A DNA stretch of 36,800 nucleotides from positions 1 through 36,800 of the forward strand of contig CAMWIU010000006.1 in NCBI GenBank assembly GCA_947174385.1. Direction: 5' to 3'. Position 1 is the first letter of the stretch; each line of letters starts with the position of its first letter. Origin of the DNA: an uncultured Treponema sp. GTDB taxonomy: Bacteria > Spirochaetota > Spirochaetia > Treponematales > Treponemataceae. Shown here piece after piece: positions 26,507 to 35,719 of this stretch. Below the pieces are notes generated by a model. That model was not told the DNA's origin. It ran no database searches and saw only the letters and a list, made by a program, of their open reading frames with translations. A program made the position numbers and the translations under genes.

Positions 26507-26579
26507 CGAGGTTTTGAAAAAATTTTCATTCTTTCTTTTTTACAAAATAGCAAAAGAAATAACTCGTGATGTCATCTTC
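26507..26579. repeat. left copy of long direct repeat (duplicated 3' end of MEMO gene)
   Basis: Near-identical to 28401-28472; encodes ..EDDITSYFFCYFVKKKE* on minus strand. Confidence 0.9.
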
Positions 26580-26580
26580 G

Positions 26581-26610
26581 TTGACATTATACACGCTATC
26601 GTGTATAATG
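26581..26610 (+). promoter_or_regulatory. perfect sigma70 promoter TTGACA-N17-TATAAT overlapping an 11-bp-arm palindrome CATTATACACG-CTAT-CGTGTATAATG
   Basis: TTGACA 26581-26586, TATAAT 26604-26609; palindrome arms 26585-26595 and 26600-26610. Confidence 0.85.
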
Positions 26611-26628
26611 GGGAAACTGGGGAAAACA

Positions 26629-27457
26629 ATGCTTGTATCGCTTAACAATTATGCTTCACAACATAAAAGAAGTAGTGATACTATACGTCGTCTTGCAGAA
26701 AATGGAAGATTTAAGACGGCAAAAAAGATAGCTCGAAACTGGGTAGTTGATGATACCGAACCATATCCTTTTTTAAAACGGAACTCCATAAAAAAATATA
26801 AATTCATTGATCTATTTGCAGGAATTTGGGGGAATTCGGTTGGGATTTGAAAAAGCCTTTGGAAAGGATTCTGAAACAGTTTTCGTTTCAGAGTGGGATA
26901 CCGCTGCCAAAAAAACTTACCTTGCGAATTTCCCTGACACTAAAGTAATTGCAGGTGATATAACAAAAATTGATGAAAATGATGTGCCACCATTCAATAT
27001 TTGCTTGGCTGGTTTTCCTTGCCAGGCGTTCAGCATGGCAGGACAGCGAAAAGGTTTTGACGACAACTATAAAGGCATTTGCAGGGGAACATTGTTTTTG
27101 GATGTGGCTAGAATTTGCGACTTACGAAAGCCGGAAGTCATATTTTGTGAAAACGTGAAAGGGCTTGCCATTCATGACAGGGGCAGAACTTTCAAGATAA
27201 TAAAATCAACTTTTGAAAATCTTGGATATACAGTATTTTCCGCCATCCTAAACAGCAAAGATTTCGGCGTTCCACAAAACAGAGAACGCATCTATATAGT
27301 TGCTTTTAAAAATAAACTGGGTGTAAAAAAATTTGATTTTCCCACGCCGACAGATTCTACAAAGGTAATCCGAAACATAATGGAAGAAGAGCCAGTTTCT
27401 GCGAAATATTATTTAAGCAATACTTATGTAGAAACATTAAAACGGCACAAAGCGTAA
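26629..27457 (+). pseudogene. DNA (cytosine-5) methyltransferase with N-terminal HTH-like domain; frameshifted in motif I and lacking TRD/motifs IX-X
   Basis: KFIDLFAGI|GGIRLGFEKAFG split by one extra T near 26824-26827; FPCQAFSMAG, ENVKGL, QNRERIYIVAF; ends at ..TYVETLKRHKA*. Confidence 0.85.
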
Positions 27458-27471
27458 ATTAGAGGCATTAC

Positions 27472-28236
27472 ATGGCAAATGAATGGACGAAAGAAGAAAC
27501 AATTGTAGCGTTCAATGTTTACTGCAAAGTACCGTTTAAAAATTCAAGTAAAAATCATCCAGTTGTTATGAAATATGCAAAAATTCTTGGACGCACTCCA
27601 TCTGCGTTGAATATGAAAATCGGAAATTTCGGCAGACTCGATCCGAATTTGAAGGCACAAGGAATTGTCGGACTTGGACACGGAAGCAAAATGGAAGAAA
27701 TCGTATGGAATGAATTTGCAGAAAGCCCTGAAAAATTAGCCTATGAAAGCGAAATGCTAATTGCAAAATTTCAGAACAAAGAAATTATAGAAACTTGTGA
27801 AATAGATTTGTCAAATCTTCCGCAAGGAACAGAACGGGCTTTAGCCATTCGTCAACGAATAAATCAGTCGTTTTTCCGAAGTGCAGTTCTGACGTCTTAC
27901 AATTTTTGTTGTTGCATTTCGGGCGTTAGAATTCCCGAATTGCTTGAAGCATGCCACATTGCCGATTGGTCGAAAAATGAAAAACAGAGACTAAATCCGA
28001 CCAATGGACTTTGTATGAATTCTTTCTTTCATAAATCCTATGATAAAAATTTGGTTGCGATTACGCCTGATTACGAAGTGAAAATTTCAGAAAGACTGGT
28101 TGAATCAATTGAAAGCGAAAACTTCAAAAAATACTTGAAAAACACACATAATTCAAAAATAAAACTGCCAGATCGTTTTTTGCCGAACAAAGAATTTTTG
28201 GATGCACATTATACGGAGTTTAAAAATGCAGTGTAA
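27472..28236 (+). CDS. HNH endonuclease (putative restriction enzyme)
   Basis: CISGVRIPELLEACHIADWSKNEKQRLNPTNGLCMNSFFHKSYDKNL. Confidence 0.85.
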   Translation: MANEWTKEETIVAFNVYCKVPFKNSSKNHPVVMKYAKILGRTPSALNMKIGNFGRLDPNLKAQGIVGLGHGSKMEEIVWNEFAESPEKLAYESEMLIAKFQNKEIIETCEIDLSNLPQGTERALAIRQRINQSFFRSAVLTSYNFCCCISGVRIPELLEACHIADWSKNEKQRLNPTNGLCMNSFFHKSYDKNLVAITPDYEVKISERLVESIESENFKKYLKNTHNSKIKLPDRFLPNKEFLDAHYTEFKNAV

Positions 28237-28381
28237 CGAACGAATTGATTATTGGGATTTTATCTGTGAATATTTACCAAATTATGAAAATCGCGACGAC
28301 GTTCTTCTGAGCGATATTTTATTCAGATTCACAACAGGAGTGCCATTGCAGATTAGGTTTTCTCTGAAAAATAAGATTTAG
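28226..28381 (+). pseudogene. 51-aa ORF overlapping HNH 3' end, possible truncated gene
   Basis: MQCNERIDYWDFICEYLPNYENRDDVLLSDILFRF... then short tail and stop just before the right repeat. Confidence 0.4.
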
Positions 28382-28400
28382 TAAAATCTGTCTTTATTTT

Positions 28401-28472
28401 CGAGGTTTTGAAAAATTTTTATTCTTTCTTTTTTAGAAAATAGCAAAAGAAATAACTCGTGATGTCATCTTC
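28401..28472. repeat. right copy of long direct repeat (3' end of intact MEMO gene)
   Basis: Matches 26507-26579 except a few changes in an A/T run and one C/G. Confidence 0.9.
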
Positions 28473-29324
28473 ATCTTGCCGAGAAATTTCAAATGAATTT
28501 GTGTTGCGCTGAATTACGGCGCGAAAATTTTCTTTTGTTGCGTGCGTCAGCGCGTACATTGCAACAGGATTATCGCAAAGCGTGAATTGCCATGTCGCGC
28601 GATTTGGGTCGGCAAAAAATTTTCTTGACACATTATCATTTTGCTTTGTTTTTTCAATATTGTGATGATGCGAAAAATCCGAAGAAATTAAAATGAAAAA
28701 ATCTTTTTTTGCGACAAATGATTCGAGTGCGACGGAAAGGCGGTTTGCAATTTTTGTGTTTACGGGCGATTCCGCATCGTATGCGATGGCGACGATTTTG
28801 CTTTTGGGAAAATATTTTGCGATAAAAGGCGCGATGGCGGAAACTCCGTGTTCATACAAAAAAACATCGTCTTCGTTTTTTCCGTCAAGTTTTTCGAGCA
28901 AAACTTTTTGAATTTTTTTGTCGGTTTTGAGAAAAGTGCCGTCGCAATTCCACGCGCCGGATGTCAGAGAAAAATCCGCACGCGACAAATTCCAATGCGA
29001 AGGCGAAAGGACGATAAAAGTTTTGATTTTTGGATTGTGCTCGGAAAGTTCAGAAAACCATTCGTCGATGAATTTGTACGCCAAAAGATGATGACTCACA
29101 ATTCCTGCGAACGGCACGTCGTTTTTTGCAAGATTTTGCTCGATTGGAATTTCCGGAGTGTTTGGCAAAATCAGATTGCGCTCTTGCCAAGTTGGGAATT
29201 GCACGGCTTTTTTTTCTTCCAAAATTTTTTGCGTTTTTGAATTTTGGGATGAAGATTTTCGCGAAAAATTTCCGCAAGAAAAAAGAAAAATTATTATTGC
29301 AAATCCTAAAGCCAAATTTTTCAT
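28419..29324 (-). CDS. MEMO1/AmmeMemoRadiSam system protein B family, predicted lipoprotein
   Basis: FAGIVSHHLLAYKFIDEWFSEL; LSPSHWN; ISSDFSHHH; N-terminal lipobox FLFSC. Confidence 0.8.
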   Translation of the reverse strand: MKNLALGFAIIIFLFSCGNFSRKSSSQNSKTQKILEEKKAVQFPTWQERNLILPNTPEIPIEQNLAKNDVPFAGIVSHHLLAYKFIDEWFSELSEHNPKIKTFIVLSPSHWNLSRADFSLTSGAWNCDGTFLKTDKKIQKVLLEKLDGKNEDDVFLYEHGVSAIAPFIAKYFPKSKIVAIAYDAESPVNTKIANRLSVALESFVAKKDFFILISSDFSHHHNIEKTKQNDNVSRKFFADPNRATWQFTLCDNPVAMYALTHATKENFRAVIQRNTNSFEISRQDEDDITSYFFCYFLKKKE

Positions 29325-29435
29325 AGATTCAATCTTATAATCTTAAATTTCTTTATTCGCAAAATTCGGATGCAAGCCGAAAGTTCGCGTTTTACGAACG
29401 AAACTTGCAACTTTGAATTTTGCAAAAAAGAATTC

Positions 29436-29465
29436 AAAATCCGCACAACTTTTTTTGTGCGGATT
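29436..29465 (-). terminator. 12-bp-stem intrinsic terminator AAATCCGCACAA-CTTTTT-TTGTGCGGATTT
   Basis: Perfect stem downstream of the minus-strand lipoprotein gene. Confidence 0.75.
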
Positions 29466-29497
29466 TCAATTTAAATTTTTCCGCCAAAGCCGCTCGC

Positions 29498-32233
29498 TTA
29501 AATGGTTGGATCTAAATACCATTTTGGCTTTCGTTTTGCCGCTTCACTTTCATTATCATAAACCATTTTTTTCCACTGCTCGTCCGTGAGGCGATCGTTC
29601 ATCGGATGCTCAAATTCATAATAATTGAATGTGTAGCCCACCGCAACGCGCTTTCCGCCTTGCTTGTCGTTGAGCGCGACATAAATTCTGTGCGGAATTC
29701 CCACCGCCACTTCAAGCACCGAACCGCTTTCCGCATTCGTCAAAACGTCGGCGACCAGCGCCATTTTGAATTGCTCGTTATCAGTAGCATAGGTAGCATA
29801 AGTTGAAAATGGCATTACGGATTTTGCCAAAAGTTGCGGAATTGTTCCGATCCAATCCAAGTCGTCTTTTGAAACTTTTTCATCTTTCACTTCGGAGGCA
29901 ACAATATTCAAGGCGCGAAGACAAATGTCTTCCATCGAAGAAACGGCTTTTTCCGAATCCTTATCAAAAAGTTTATACCGCTCAAAAATGTTTTGGAAAA
30001 CTTTCCACGATACGCAAAGCTCTGTAAAAAATTTCAAATTCGGCTCAATATAATGAACAGGGCTTGGAATTTTATCCGTGCGATATGTCGGGTTATATCC
30101 ACCGCCGCCCATTTCGGCAGCAACCATCTTCGTGTACAAAATCGTGTCGTGCTTCAATTCTGCCCAAGTTCCGAGCGAGCTTTCAAGCGACTTGATATTC
30201 CAAAGCGGCTTTTCGGTGAAGAAAAATCCCGCGCCTTGCTCGAATTCGGCTTGCGCTTTTGTGAGCGCGAGAACTGAATTGTAATAAGTTTCGCTCCAAA
30301 ATTTTTCGTCCTTTGAACCGAAGAATTTTTTGAATTTGGCGAGAATCGTTTTCAATTTTTCAAAATTTTCGTCGGTATTTTCAAGAAGCATATCGGCGGA
30401 ATTTGAGCCGAACGCGCTCGCGATGTCAAGGCCGGAAGCCATCATTCTTCCAAAAAGGCGAGGAGAGGTCACGTGCTGGAAAATCCATGCGTCATAAGTG
30501 AAACGCTGTCCCAAAAATCGCCAGCCCATCGCGGGCTTTAAGTTTTCGGGATCTGAATAATCGCCTTCGCTTTGGTTTGCATAAAACGCGCTTGTGCTTG
30601 CGATGAGCGGAGGTTTTAGTTTTTCGCGCGAAAGGCTTGCGAAGTTGGCGACGTTTTCATCAGAAATCCATTCCAAAACATTTTCTGCGCCCACAGATTT
30701 CCACAGCGGAACTATATCATCGAAGGAAAGATCGTCGGACTCGCCGATTAAAACCGTAATCGGCTCGAAAACGCTTTTCCACAATGCATACAAAGATTCA
30801 TCTTGCATAATGATGTCGTTTATGTAAATTCCAATTTTGAACATATTTTGCGCCAAACTTTCTCTGGGATCTGAAGAATCGCGCGAACTTTCGGGAAGCG
30901 GAAAATTTATTCTGCCAAACCACATCATAGCCCGAAAATATGTTTTCAGCCTTTCGTTTTGAGTGTAGTGGCCGCGCGGCTTGTATTGCGTGTAATCTTC
31001 GATGTAAACGCTGCCGTCCGAAAAAGCGAGCGCGCTCGAATCTTGCATTGCGGCGGCTTCGAAAATTTTTTCCACTTCTTCACGAATTTCTTCGCCGTAT
31101 TCCGAAAGCACCGAATCCTTGTCCGGCATTACTTCTTCGCCATATTTATCTTCTTTCGGGGTGAGTTTCAAAATCGCGCGCGCGACGGCAAAATATTTTT
31201 CTGCGATGTTCGCAGTTTCGTTTGAAGGATATTCTTGCAAATCATTTGAAATTTTTTCGCGGAATTTTTCTGTAAGCAAAGCCAAGCGCGGAGAAAAAAT
31301 TTCTTGCTCGACATGTTGCAAAAGCCTGTCAAATAAAAGGTGCTGGCTGTGCGCGAACAAATCCGTCGTGATGAAAAGCGGCACGAGATTTCCTCCCATC
31401 CTGTAGCCAAAAGGACGCTTGCGGTGGTTTTTGTAGAGCGCAATCATATCATCCGGATTGTCTATGTTAAGCCGATATTCATACTTCGAGACATTTTGCA
31501 AGGCGATGCGATTTTCTTTGAGCGAATTTGCAATTTGTGCGTTGAAGTATTCGTAGCCGCAAAACGGATAAAAATTTTCGAAATACGCAGTATCTTCATC
31601 AGTCGCGTGTTGATACAAAAATGAAAGAAGGTTCATTTGATCGTTCGTAAAATTGTCTTCTTGTCCGCACACATCCGCGCCAAAAACAAAACCTGCTTTT
31701 CCTTCATATTCTACCGGATAAAAATAATTGAAATTTTCTTCAAAATGAAAAAGTCTGTCATATTCTCCATCTCCAATTTTTTCGCCCGTGCATTTTAGCA
31801 GCGCACCTTTCGGAATTTTTATTCCAGCGCGTTTTAAGGAATCAAATTCATCGTCATCTTGCGGAACTTTATTGAACAAAACGCACAAATCATTTCCTGC
31901 CACGAGCGTTTTTTCAAAATCCGGCGGCGTTGGAAGATTTGAAAATTCCACTTCGTCATTTAGATAAACGCTGTGCGCCGAATTTTGCGCGTCCTTGCGA
32001 AATTGCGACAAGTAGCCGCTTAAATCGATTTTGTCTATATCCTTGTTTATGAATTTTTTTTCATCAATGAAAATTTTATTTCTTGGAAAGGAAAACTGCT
32101 CGTCTTGCGCCGTTTGTTCAACTTGCTCAATTTGTTCTGTTTGCTCGATTTGATTTTCGGGCGAAAGTTCTTCTTTTTTCGAGCATCCAAAAATGAACGC
32201 AATCGCCGCGAATACTAAAATAGATTTTTTCAT
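29498..32233 (-). CDS. DUF3160-like large lipoprotein
   Basis: MKKSILVFAAIAFIFGCSKKEE lipobox; RPFGYRMGGNLVPLFITTDLFAHSQHLLFDRLLQ; start trimmed from the longer ORF. Confidence 0.75.
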   Translation of the reverse strand: MKKSILVFAAIAFIFGCSKKEELSPENQIEQTEQIEQVEQTAQDEQFSFPRNKIFIDEKKFINKDIDKIDLSGYLSQFRKDAQNSAHSVYLNDEVEFSNLPTPPDFEKTLVAGNDLCVLFNKVPQDDDEFDSLKRAGIKIPKGALLKCTGEKIGDGEYDRLFHFEENFNYFYPVEYEGKAGFVFGADVCGQEDNFTNDQMNLLSFLYQHATDEDTAYFENFYPFCGYEYFNAQIANSLKENRIALQNVSKYEYRLNIDNPDDMIALYKNHRKRPFGYRMGGNLVPLFITTDLFAHSQHLLFDRLLQHVEQEIFSPRLALLTEKFREKISNDLQEYPSNETANIAEKYFAVARAILKLTPKEDKYGEEVMPDKDSVLSEYGEEIREEVEKIFEAAAMQDSSALAFSDGSVYIEDYTQYKPRGHYTQNERLKTYFRAMMWFGRINFPLPESSRDSSDPRESLAQNMFKIGIYINDIIMQDESLYALWKSVFEPITVLIGESDDLSFDDIVPLWKSVGAENVLEWISDENVANFASLSREKLKPPLIASTSAFYANQSEGDYSDPENLKPAMGWRFLGQRFTYDAWIFQHVTSPRLFGRMMASGLDIASAFGSNSADMLLENTDENFEKLKTILAKFKKFFGSKDEKFWSETYYNSVLALTKAQAEFEQGAGFFFTEKPLWNIKSLESSLGTWAELKHDTILYTKMVAAEMGGGGYNPTYRTDKIPSPVHYIEPNLKFFTELCVSWKVFQNIFERYKLFDKDSEKAVSSMEDICLRALNIVASEVKDEKVSKDDLDWIGTIPQLLAKSVMPFSTYATYATDNEQFKMALVADVLTNAESGSVLEVAVGIPHRIYVALNDKQGGKRVAVGYTFNYYEFEHPMNDRLTDEQWKKMVYDNESEAAKRKPKWYLDPTI

Positions 32234-32397
32234 AATTACTCCTATTTTATTATTGCATATTTTTTTTAATGTGTAAAGTTTTTGCGATGGCGAAAATTCA
32301 ATTTTGCGCGAGCGTGAATTTTCAAAAAAATTCTCTTTATTTTTCTTGAAAAATGTGCTATGTTTTTTTAAATTCATAATTGGAGGAAATGAAATTA

Positions 32398-32890
32398 TGA
32401 AAAAAATTTTTTGTCTTGCAATTTTCGCTTTGCTCGCAGGAATCGCGTTCTCCGAACGCCTGCCGAAAGAAGTGATGGAAATGGCGCGCGAAAAAATTCC
32501 CGAAGACGCGCAGCTTAAAAATTCCAGCTTCAAAGACAATGAGTACGAATTGATTTTGTCGATGGCGCGAAGTCAACTTACAAAATTGAAATCGATAAAA
32601 TTGGAAACAATTTGTCGCTCAAGGAAATTAAAATCGAAAGCCGCGCGCCGGCGGAATCCAAAAATATAAAATTGGAAGTGGAAGATGTGGAATCGCTTTT
32701 GCGTGAAAAATTTCCCGAAGCCGCAAATTTTAAAATCGAATTGGATTACAATCGAAGCGGCCGCGCGAAATACGAAGCCGAATTTTTCACGGACGAATAC
32801 AAGGCGGAAGTCGAAATAAATCCGTTCACCGGCGAATTTTCCAAGCAGGAATTTGAATATTATTTCGAATATGATTCTTTGAAAAATTAG
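32398..32890 (+). pseudogene. exported PepSY-like protein split by a single frameshift near 32547-32551
   Basis: Frame 1 MKKIFCLAIFALLAGIAFSERLPKEVMEMAREKIPEDAQLKNSSFKDNEYE continues naturally in another frame as IDFVDGAKSTYKIEIDKIGNNLSLKEIKIES..EFSKQEFEYYFEYDSLKN. Confidence 0.65.
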
Positions 32891-33762
32891 TCCTTGGTTT
32901 TCGTGAAAAACCGTCCGAAGATTTCTTTTGTTTGAAGCACGTTTATGAAAGCTTCGGCATCGCAACTTTTCAAAGCCTTGCTTAACATTCCGAGTTCGTC
33001 TGCCGAAACGACGGTGTAAAGCAAGGTCTTTTGCGAATTTCTGAAACAGCCTGTTCCGACGAATCTTGTGGCATCGTGATTTGTCACTTGCTTTATGATT
33101 TTGTAAAGTTCGTCCGGTTTTTCCGTAACTATGAGCATCGTGATTTTTTGGTAATGGCGATAAAGTCGGTTTAGAACTTGCGTCGAGCTGAATTGAAATA
33201 TAATCGAATAAAGCGCCTTGTCCCATCCGAAAATAAATCCAGCCACTATGAGAACGCAAACATTCATTCCGAAGATATAGTTCCACATATCCACGCCGCG
33301 TTTTTCGGAAAAATAAATCGCGATGAAATCTGTTCCGCCGCTGGTAGCGTCCGCACGCAAGCAGGAAGTTACTGCGATGCCGTTCAAAATTCCGCCGAAC
33401 ACGGAGCAGAGCAACGGATCGTTCGTAAGTTGAATTTGCGGAAGCGCGTCCGTCAGCACCGATGAAAGCGCAATCATTAAAAGAGAAAAAAGCGTAAACT
33501 TTTTTCCGATGAACAAAAAGCTTATTACCACAGGCGCGGCATTCAATGAAAGATATAAAACTGTGTACGGAATTTTTATGTCGAAAAATTTTTCGGCGGA
33601 ACGTTGCACCAAAAGCGAGATTCCAGAAAATCCTCCCGGAAAAATTTCTGCGGCATAGACGAAGGAATTTAAATTTAATGAAAGAATTATCGCGCCAAGC
33701 AAAATCAGCAGGATGCGCTTGAAGTCCGACGGAGTTGGGATTATTGTTGTGAATCGTGACAT
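32887..33762 (-). CDS. YitT-family membrane protein
   Basis: ILLGAIILSLNLNSFVYAAEIFPGGFSGISLL; LRADATSGGTDFIAIYFS; C-terminal DUF2179-like domain. Confidence 0.88.
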   Translation of the reverse strand: MSRFTTIIPTPSDFKRILLILLGAIILSLNLNSFVYAAEIFPGGFSGISLLVQRSAEKFFDIKIPYTVLYLSLNAAPVVISFLFIGKKFTLFSLLMIALSSVLTDALPQIQLTNDPLLCSVFGGILNGIAVTSCLRADATSGGTDFIAIYFSEKRGVDMWNYIFGMNVCVLIVAGFIFGWDKALYSIIFQFSSTQVLNRLYRHYQKITMLIVTEKPDELYKIIKQVTNHDATRFVGTGCFRNSQKTLLYTVVSADELGMLSKALKSCDAEAFINVLQTKEIFGRFFTKTKD

Positions 33763-33793
33763 TTCATTTTCCTTGCTCGTTTAAATTTTTTTC

Positions 33794-33859
33794 GGAAAAA
33801 TCAAACGGCAACTTTACTGGTTTTTCCGCGAAAATTTCCCGATAGTCCGCCTTGCTTTC
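33794..33859. repeat. left copy of ~66-bp imperfect direct repeat (remnant dus 3' end)
   Basis: GGAAAAATCAAACG and CGAAAATTTCCCGATAGTCCGCCTTGCTTTC shared with 34669-34735; minus strand reads ESKADYREIFAEKPVKLPFDFSEKNLNEQGK*. Confidence 0.85.
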
Positions 33860-33879
33860 TACGAAATATGTGATATAAT
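33852..33879 (+). promoter_or_regulatory. putative promoter TTGCTT-N16-TATAAT for expansin gene
   Basis: -10 is consensus; -35 weak and inside the duplicated dus end. Confidence 0.45.
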
Positions 33880-33885
33880 AAAAGT

Positions 33886-34627
33886 ATGATAAAACAATTT
33901 TGTATATTTATTTTGGCTATGCCGCTGCTTTTTCTTTCATGCGACATTGTTGATGGGGGGGGGTGGCCCTTCTTCATCTTCAGGAAAAACAGAATTGCAA
34001 AAAACCGGCACGGTAACATTTTACACCACGTATAATGAGGCTTCCGTCGCATATTACACGCCCGAACTTGAAAGCGGTTGGTACAAATGCGCGGTTTCGG
34101 AAAACAAGCTCGGCGAATTTCCGCCGCAGTCTGCCGTAAAAATTACGCACAACAACAAAACGATTTATGTGCTTGTCACGGATTTATGTCCGAACGATGG
34201 AAATTCGCATTGGACAAGCAATTCGAATTATTTTTTTGATTTGGCAGAAAATGCTTTTGCGGCGTTGGAAAATAAAGACAAAGGGCATATCGATGTTTCG
34301 ATACAACGCATTGCATATGAGACGAAACGGAACATCAAGTTTGCCGTGAAGGACGGCTCAAATCAAAACTGGCTTGCGGGGCGGTTTTACAATATGCGCT
34401 ATCCGCTTGCAAAAGTCGAATACTCACAAGACGGAATCAATTTCAAAGAAATGGAAAAACTTGACGGCAATAAAAATAATTGGTGGAAGATTCAATCTGG
34501 TAAAAATTTGATGTCAAACTTAACATTCCGATTGATTGACGTTTATGGCAATACGATTACGTGTACCGCAATCAGCAAATTATCCGTTGGCGGAACATAC
34601 GACCTCGGCGCGAATTTTAATTATTAA
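33886..34627 (+). CDS. bacterial expansin (EXLX1/YoaJ-like) lipoprotein, interrupted by G9 tract 33955-33963 (currently out of frame)
   Basis: Signal/lipobox MIKQFCIFILAMPLLFLSC in one frame; DPBB + CBM63-like domains (VLVTDLCPN..FDLAENAFAALENKDKGHIDVSIQRI; NQNWLAGRFYNMRYPLAKVEYSQDG..NLTFRLIDVYGNT) in the adjacent frame after the G tract. Confidence 0.8.
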
Positions 34628-34668
34628 AAACGCGGATTTGCCTTGTCGAAATTTCAGCGAACATCGCA

Positions 34669-34735
34669 GGAAAAATCAAACGTCGGCGTTGCCCGCGCCT
34701 TCCCCGAAAATTTCCCGATAGTCCGCCTTGCTTTC
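34669..34735. repeat. right copy of ~66-bp imperfect direct repeat (current dus 3' end)
   Basis: 14-bp and 31-bp exact blocks shared with 33794-33859. Confidence 0.85.
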
Positions 34736-35719
34736 CGCATGCACGATTTTTTTGCGAAGTTCCGCGCCGCCGGGAAATCCTTTTGAATACGCGCAAAATC
34801 TTTTTCGCATTTCTCGGCATGCGGCGGCTTCTCCAATGTCGGCGGCAAGCAAATCCAATTCTTCGAACGCGGCAGAGAATTTTTCTTCGGCGGAAATTTC
34901 TTCGAACGCGCCTTTTTCCAAAAGTTCTCGCGTCTGCCTGAAAATGAAAGGCTTTCCCATCGCGCCACGCGCGAACATCACGCCGTCGCAGCCAGTTTGT
35001 TCGAGCATATTTTTCGCGTCTTGCGGAGAAAAAATGTCGCCGCTTCCGAAAACTGGAATTCTTCCTGCCACAAATTCCACGAGCTGCGCCAAAATTTCCC
35101 AGTCGGCTTTGCCTTCGTAGCCTTGCGCGCGCGTGCGAGGATGAATCGTGATCGCGCAAACGCCCGCTTCCAATGCGGCGGCGGCGGCTTCTTTCCAAGT
35201 CAAATTCTGCGCGTCCCAGCCCGAACGAATTTTCACGCTGACGGGAATTTTTTGCGGGGCAGGCTTTCCGCCGAATGTCGGACGCTCGCCTTGGAATTCC
35301 GAAACCGCCTTCACGACCGAGCGCGCTATTTTGAAAAGTTTTTCGGGATTTCTCGTGATTTCCGCGCCCGCGCCGCTTTTTATGATTTTCGGAACAGGGC
35401 ATCCGCAATTTATGTCGATGAGTTCGCACGAAGTTTTTTGCAAGACGATTCGCGCGCCTTCCGCCACGACTTCCTCGTTGCCGCCGAAAATCTGCACGGC
35501 ATACGCGGCTTCGTTCGGCGCGCGCTCCATCAAGCATTGCGTTTTTTTTGAATCGCGCGTGAGTGCTTCCATCGAAACCATTTCGGTGTATTCAAAACAG
35601 CTTCCGCCTTTGACGCAAACGCTGCGAAAAGCGCGGTCGCTGTAGCCCGCCACCGGAGCGAGGAAAAGATTTCCTGGCAGAGAAAGATTTCCGATTTTTA
35701 CCGAATGAAAAAGCGCCAT
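34676..35719 (-). CDS. dus: tRNA-dihydrouridine synthase
   Basis: LAPVAGYSDRAFRSVC, DINCGCPVPKIIKSGAGAE, ITIHPRTRAQGYEGKADW, VFGSGDIFS. Confidence 0.93.
   Translation of the reverse strand: MALFHSVKIGNLSLPGNLFLAPVAGYSDRAFRSVCVKGGSCFEYTEMVSMEALTRDSKKTQCLMERAPNEAAYAVQIFGGNEEVVAEGARIVLQKTSCELIDINCGCPVPKIIKSGAGAEITRNPEKLFKIARSVVKAVSEFQGERPTFGGKPAPQKIPVSVKIRSGWDAQNLTWKEAAAAALEAGVCAITIHPRTRAQGYEGKADWEILAQLVEFVAGRIPVFGSGDIFSPQDAKNMLEQTGCDGVMFARGAMGKPFIFRQTRELLEKGAFEEISAEEKFSAAFEELDLLAADIGEAAACREMRKRFCAYSKGFPGGAELRKKIVHAESKADYREIFGEGAGNADV

Follow-up and report, generated by a model that had tools for sequence, protein, structure and literature searches.

Long target duplications around a restriction-modification module, an expansin gene and further small cargoes in an uncultured Treponema

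The restriction-modification (R-M) module and the expansin gene of the window, by which we mean the whole stretch of 36,800 nucleotides analyzed here, are very probably (probability about 0.85) cargo of insertions with long target duplication, in which a short recombinase-free segment is joined in and 34-92 bp of the target come to lie on both sides of it. Insertion with duplication of a host target and without an encoded recombinase is established; for five young sites (the R-M module and sites on contigs C10, C11, C3 and C21) the empty site with a single target copy was seen in a sister species. The window corresponds to contig C6 of a MAG of 2.3 Mb (G000; 180 contigs, 87% complete), which has Treponema MAGs as close named relatives. 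The sister species used for comparison (G112) is also a MAG and is syntenic with the window at approximately 93-95% nucleotide identity; the weighted mean identity of aligned stretches between both genomes is 93.4%. Roughly half of each MAG was sampled, which gave the five young events.

The R-M module and the expansin gene of the window

The R-M module lies beside a gene for a Memo-like protein, which is paired with DUF3160 in relatives. The features of this region are:

26507-26579, no strand: left, detached copy of the Memo-gene 3' end, to the left of the R-M module (96% match to 28401-28472)
26581-26609, plus strand: consensus promoter TTGACA-17-TATAAT at the left junction, with the inverted repeat TTATACACG..CGTGTATAA (sequence reading)
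26629-27457, plus strand: decayed HTH-C5 cytosine methyltransferase (PF00145, 2.7e-65, profile positions 11-216 of 324; PADLOC MTase_II)
27472-28236, plus strand: HNH restriction endonuclease partner, ORF intact, 254 aa (PF13391; PADLOC type II HNH restriction enzyme)
28401-28472, no strand: right target copy, joined to the intact Memo-like gene and spanning its stop codon (28419-28421)
28419-29324, minus strand: Memo-like protein gene, the 3' end of which is the target (PF01875)

The methyltransferase gene carries a one-base frameshift near 26828 and lacks its C-terminal third, as the domain stops at profile position 216 of 324. The R-M module of the window is thus decayed, with its HNH partner open. 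In G112 the module is missing (1.82 kb), and the alignments of the left and right flanks overlap by 69 bp there, which means that the R-M site of G112 holds one target copy (C14:169791-169859). The search for a donor of the HNH partner revealed no near donor; matches were 46% to an ORF of Neisseria gonorrhoeae and 44% in an unannotated 6.2-kb faecal record. A tRNA/tmRNA island was considered and rejected, because the Rfam and tRNA scans gave no matches. The inverted repeat TTATACACG-CTAT-CGTGTATAA inside the R-M promoter is a candidate operator for the N-terminal HTH of the methyltransferase.

The expansin gene is located further to the right, next to dus:

33797-33859, no strand: left copy of the dus 3' end (core 33824-33859), reading ESKADYREIFAE in the dus frame; also present in G112
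33886-34627, plus strand: expansin-like lipoprotein gene, DPBB fold (PF03330)
34700-34735, no strand: right target copy (core) inside the dus 3' end (35/36 match)
34676-35719, minus strand: dus (tRNA-dihydrouridine synthase), target gene of the older insertion (PF01207)

The motif ESKADYREIFAE of the left copy is the conserved Dus C-terminus, which is kept in relatives. Since G112 also has the expansin insertion together with the left dus-end copy, this insertion predates the species split. The absence of the R-M module and the presence of the expansin in the same genome show that the two insertions are separate events of different age. An empty dus-yitT site was not found for the expansin, and its history is thus less certain than that of the young sites.

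The sequence-only reading, made on the window before this analysis, had placed both inserts between two minus-strand genes and at the 3' end of a flanking gene. Both statements are correct: the right R-M copy spans the Memo stop codon, and the right expansin core is located 22-57 bp short of the dus stop codon (34676-34678). It had also described imperfect duplications of 66-73 bp. This applies to the R-M module, whose direct repeat of 73/72 bp contains three substitutions and one indel and has a local-alignment score of 62, against a shuffle maximum of 13-16. The expansin repeat (score 33 against the same maximum) consists of the 36-bp core, and approximately 66 bp are reached only if a poorly matching middle of 16-17 bp and a co-linear exact 14-mer upstream are included. 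A promoter at each left junction, as claimed, is present for the R-M module, with TTGACA at 26581, 1-2 nt past the left repeat. For the expansin, a -35-like TTGCTT (33852) does lie within the left core; the promoter is weakly supported, because its -10 ends just 6 bp before the first ATG.

The signal-peptide ATG of the expansin (33886) is out of frame with the expansin domain across a G9 tract (33955-33963) just past the lipobox, and G8 would restore the frame. The expansins of G112 and of a further Treponema MAG (L241), which matches the window at 98% identity in its dus region, have a poly-G tract at the same place and are in frame. In 1.07 Mb of G000, 21 G/C tracts with a length of at least 8 were counted. 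The G9 tract is a candidate for phase variation. In L241 (1445-3162), the interval from the expansin to the dus stop codon contains a PDC-M29A/B-type candidate defence pair, and approximately 8 bp of the target are repeated. The available stretch to the left of the L241 expansin contains no dus-end copy. This second cargo at dus indicates that the dus 3' end was hit more than once.

Further insertions in the genome

For identification of further cases, we scanned 1.08 Mb of G000 (47%) for direct repeats with copies 0.3-4.5 kb apart, leaving out tandem paralogues, flagellin/repeat-protein arrays, a CRISPR-like array and dispersed repeats. Several repeat-flanked inserts were left after paralogues and arrays had been set aside. 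In the shuffled genome no repeat pairs reached the scan threshold. A dense repeat region with 68 repeat pairs and CRISPR-like or repetitive genes is located on contig C22 (L173:117-17019). Four additional insertions of the same form were identified in G000, each with a single target copy in G112:

C11, 3' end of the Hsp33 gene: acyltransferase and XRE regulator; 74-bp repeat; flank overlap in G112 101 bp
C10, promoter of a CAP gene: RNase III-like gene and a gene of no known kind; 92-bp repeat; flank overlap in G112 134 bp
C21, start-codon leader: 205-aa ORF; 59-bp repeat; flank overlap in G112 60 bp
C3, between divergent genes: 339-aa ORF; 34-bp repeat; flank overlap in G112 68 bp

The recurrent integrase-less route that had been proposed from the two cases in the window is supported by four more insertions in the examined half of the genome, so that the outcome which would have refuted it, an absence of further instances, did not occur. 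The cargo ranges from 0.6 to 2.4 kb and comprises one or two genes. One of the five young cargos is an R-M module and four consist of other genes. No integrase, IS or recombinase was found in the cargo proteins by Pfam and PADLOC. A serine resolvase/invertase-like ORF adjoins the Hsp33 gene at the C11 insertion site (L123:17314-17940) and is also present in the insert-free G112.

In a second, independent approach, stretches of G000 were compared with 1.19 Mb of G112, which covered 409 kb. Length differences were listed if they reached at least 250 bp and were clean, i.e., if the shorter genome contained no more than 50 bp there. Two cases in which a gene start is shared, C32 over 21 bp and L185 over 35 bp, were left out of the insertion count. 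In G000 there were seven clean gains, of which five are flanked by target duplications of 34-92 bp; of random intervals, 1 of 1500 scored 26 or more. The clean events longer in G112 (n = 6), some of which may be deletions in G000, show no repeat or one of at most 26 bp.

A putative second R-M pair, recognized by its sequence motifs, was identified on contig C1 (30359-32568, L153) and consists of a 405-aa C5 methyltransferase-like protein and a 331-aa partner. It is absent from G112, and its junction is clean, with a 6-bp gap and without target duplication. Around homologous R-M modules in G114, G159, G082 and G155 and homologous expansins in G085, G109 and G071, no flanking repeats above shuffles were detected. 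A link of the insertion form to the R-M or expansin families is not supported, as these homologues and the pair on C1 are without repeats.

Origin of the second target copy and position of the targets

Shared and private states of the target copies were counted by eye from alignments. About six states that differ from G112 are common to both G000 copies at C11, and each copy has two changes of its own. Two shared states differing from G112 were found at each of C21 and C3, and one at the R-M site. Here the copy joined to the intact Memo gene has three changes relative to G112 and the detached copy keeps the G112 states. At C10 the copies are near-identical to each other and to G112. The shared host-lineage states at C11, C21 and C3 indicate that the host's own target was duplicated after the split, which argues against gene ends supplied by a donor. 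As the copies are imperfect and differ from one another, they are not exact k-mer assembly joins.

A possible but rather doubtful alternative is homologous single-crossover insertion of circles, where a repeat-flanked module excises with one repeat and reinserts at an empty target in another cell. Direct repeats permit such excision and insertion, the process was proposed for Arabidopsis gene transposition with flanking repeats (PMC2869330), and the own-lineage copies fit if donor and host are conspecific. However, the first duplication at any site is left unexplained, so that circles could only spread an existing insert among conspecifics. The targets are unlinked and their repeats unrelated, each needing its own origin, and 34-92 bp are short for homologous recombination.

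Homology-facilitated illegitimate recombination, in which donor DNA of a related species, with the cargo next to the gene in question, is anchored in that gene through homology while its other end is joined illegitimately, is improbable. The R-M site would agree with it, as the Memo-joined copy carries the three changes and the detached copy is G112-like. The copies at C11, C21 and C3, however, share host-lineage changes, so that the second copy is not foreign, and homologous cargo elsewhere is not located beside these genes. There is also little to recommend the view that insert and repeats are ancestral and that repeat-mediated recombination removed the insert from G112. Precise deletion between direct repeats of 70 bp is possible, but at C11, C21 and C3 the copies have states in common that G112 lacks, which places the duplication after the split, and an earlier insertion with duplication would still be required.

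Of the five young insertions, two hit the 3' end of a gene, two a promoter/intergenic region and one a start-codon leader. Gene 3' ends are expected for 26% of 66-bp targets that break no gene, and were observed in 2/5 young events (P = 0.39) or, with the expansin, in 3/6 (P = 0.18). The excess is not significant; five young events are few, and a mild preference would escape the test. Some 82% of targets chosen at random would interrupt a gene, which leaves survivors clustered at gene ends and between genes. The 3'-end pattern would look special since duplications over gene ends or intergenic DNA leave all genes whole. The preference for gene 3' ends suggested by the sequence-only reading was thus not supported, and the plus-strand orientation of the cargo, which is true of both inserts in the window, is not kept at the other sites, where cargo lies on either strand or on both. 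A promoter near the left junction was seen at the R-M module and at C10, whose duplicated target itself has promoter-like sequence. Overall, the observation of the sequence-only reading is partly confirmed and its interpretation partly supported.

The duplications differ in length (34, 59, 73, 74 and 92 bp), are unrelated in sequence from site to site and contain no shared att core. It is very unlikely that a trans-acting site-specific recombinase moved integrative elements to gene 3' ends, each bringing a 3'-end copy that restores the gene: three of six targets are indeed gene 3' ends with the gene intact, and that of dus also received another cargo in L241, but three young sites are promoter/intergenic or start-codon targets, repeats are unrelated and of different length, at several sites changes of the host lineage are found in both copies, the excess of 3' ends is not significant and the cargo encodes no such enzyme. 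These data do not call for a trans-acting integrase, although one might still be involved.

Proposed route and relation to known systems

The most likely route to insertion with long target duplication would be the repair of a staggered break, or of a gap opened by two separated nicks. Incoming DNA would be joined between the long single-strand ends, and fill-in would copy both of them; alternatively, an equivalent template switch may have occurred. The joining would be Ku-independent, because Ku (PF02735) was found in 0 of 40 genomes searched (G000, 87% complete, and 39 relatives), with the B. subtilis control detected. Duplications over a gene end or intergenic DNA would survive, as every gene is left whole. 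Tentatively, the Treponema clade may acquire foreign genes, one or two at a time, by a general route that uses neither integrase nor Ku, duplicates 30-100 bp of target where no gene breaks and accounts for a large share of recent small gains, beyond R-M genes.

Reports of insertion with long target duplication go back to 2000; they started with Helicobacter and mostly concern R-M genes. The G000 insertions are new cases of this already known form. As in the reports of Nobusato et al. (2000) and Furuta et al. (2010), as summarised in PMC3031569, PMC1643837 and PMC3874152, they were seen by comparison of close genomes, lack an IS or integrase, show a long direct duplication of variable length in the order of 100 bp and include R-M cargo. 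In contrast to the cases described in these summaries, they are found in Spirochaetota, only one of the five young cargos is an R-M module and several events occurred within 409 kb. Beyond these summaries, the copies are polarised by shared changes, and the target position was tested, with no significant 3' bias. Added here are therefore the frequency in one lineage, the non-R-M cargo, the polarised copies and the tested lack of a significant 3'-end preference.

The Arabidopsis case (PMC2869330) is similar in that non-transposon genes lie between direct repeats which match a single-copy target of the sister species. It differs in concerning a plant genome in which parent copies are often known, and the explanation preferred by its authors is reinsertion of circles. 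Site-specific integrative elements at gene 3' ends likewise show a direct repeat of the 3' end and an intact gene, whereas the insertions described here have no integrase and no shared att core, use 5' and intergenic targets as well, and have host-derived repeats where this can be told.

The gain of one or two genes by bacteria without phage, transposon or integron is poorly understood. Long target duplication in five of seven clean recent gains of one lineage, with diverse cargo, datable copies and Ku not found, makes the mechanism and frequency of this process testable through the comparison of close genomes. A candidate long target duplication was also observed in G112 itself, where a direct repeat of 130 bp (98%) flanks an M23-peptidase-like gene downstream of recJ (L148:17713-18983, contig C16).
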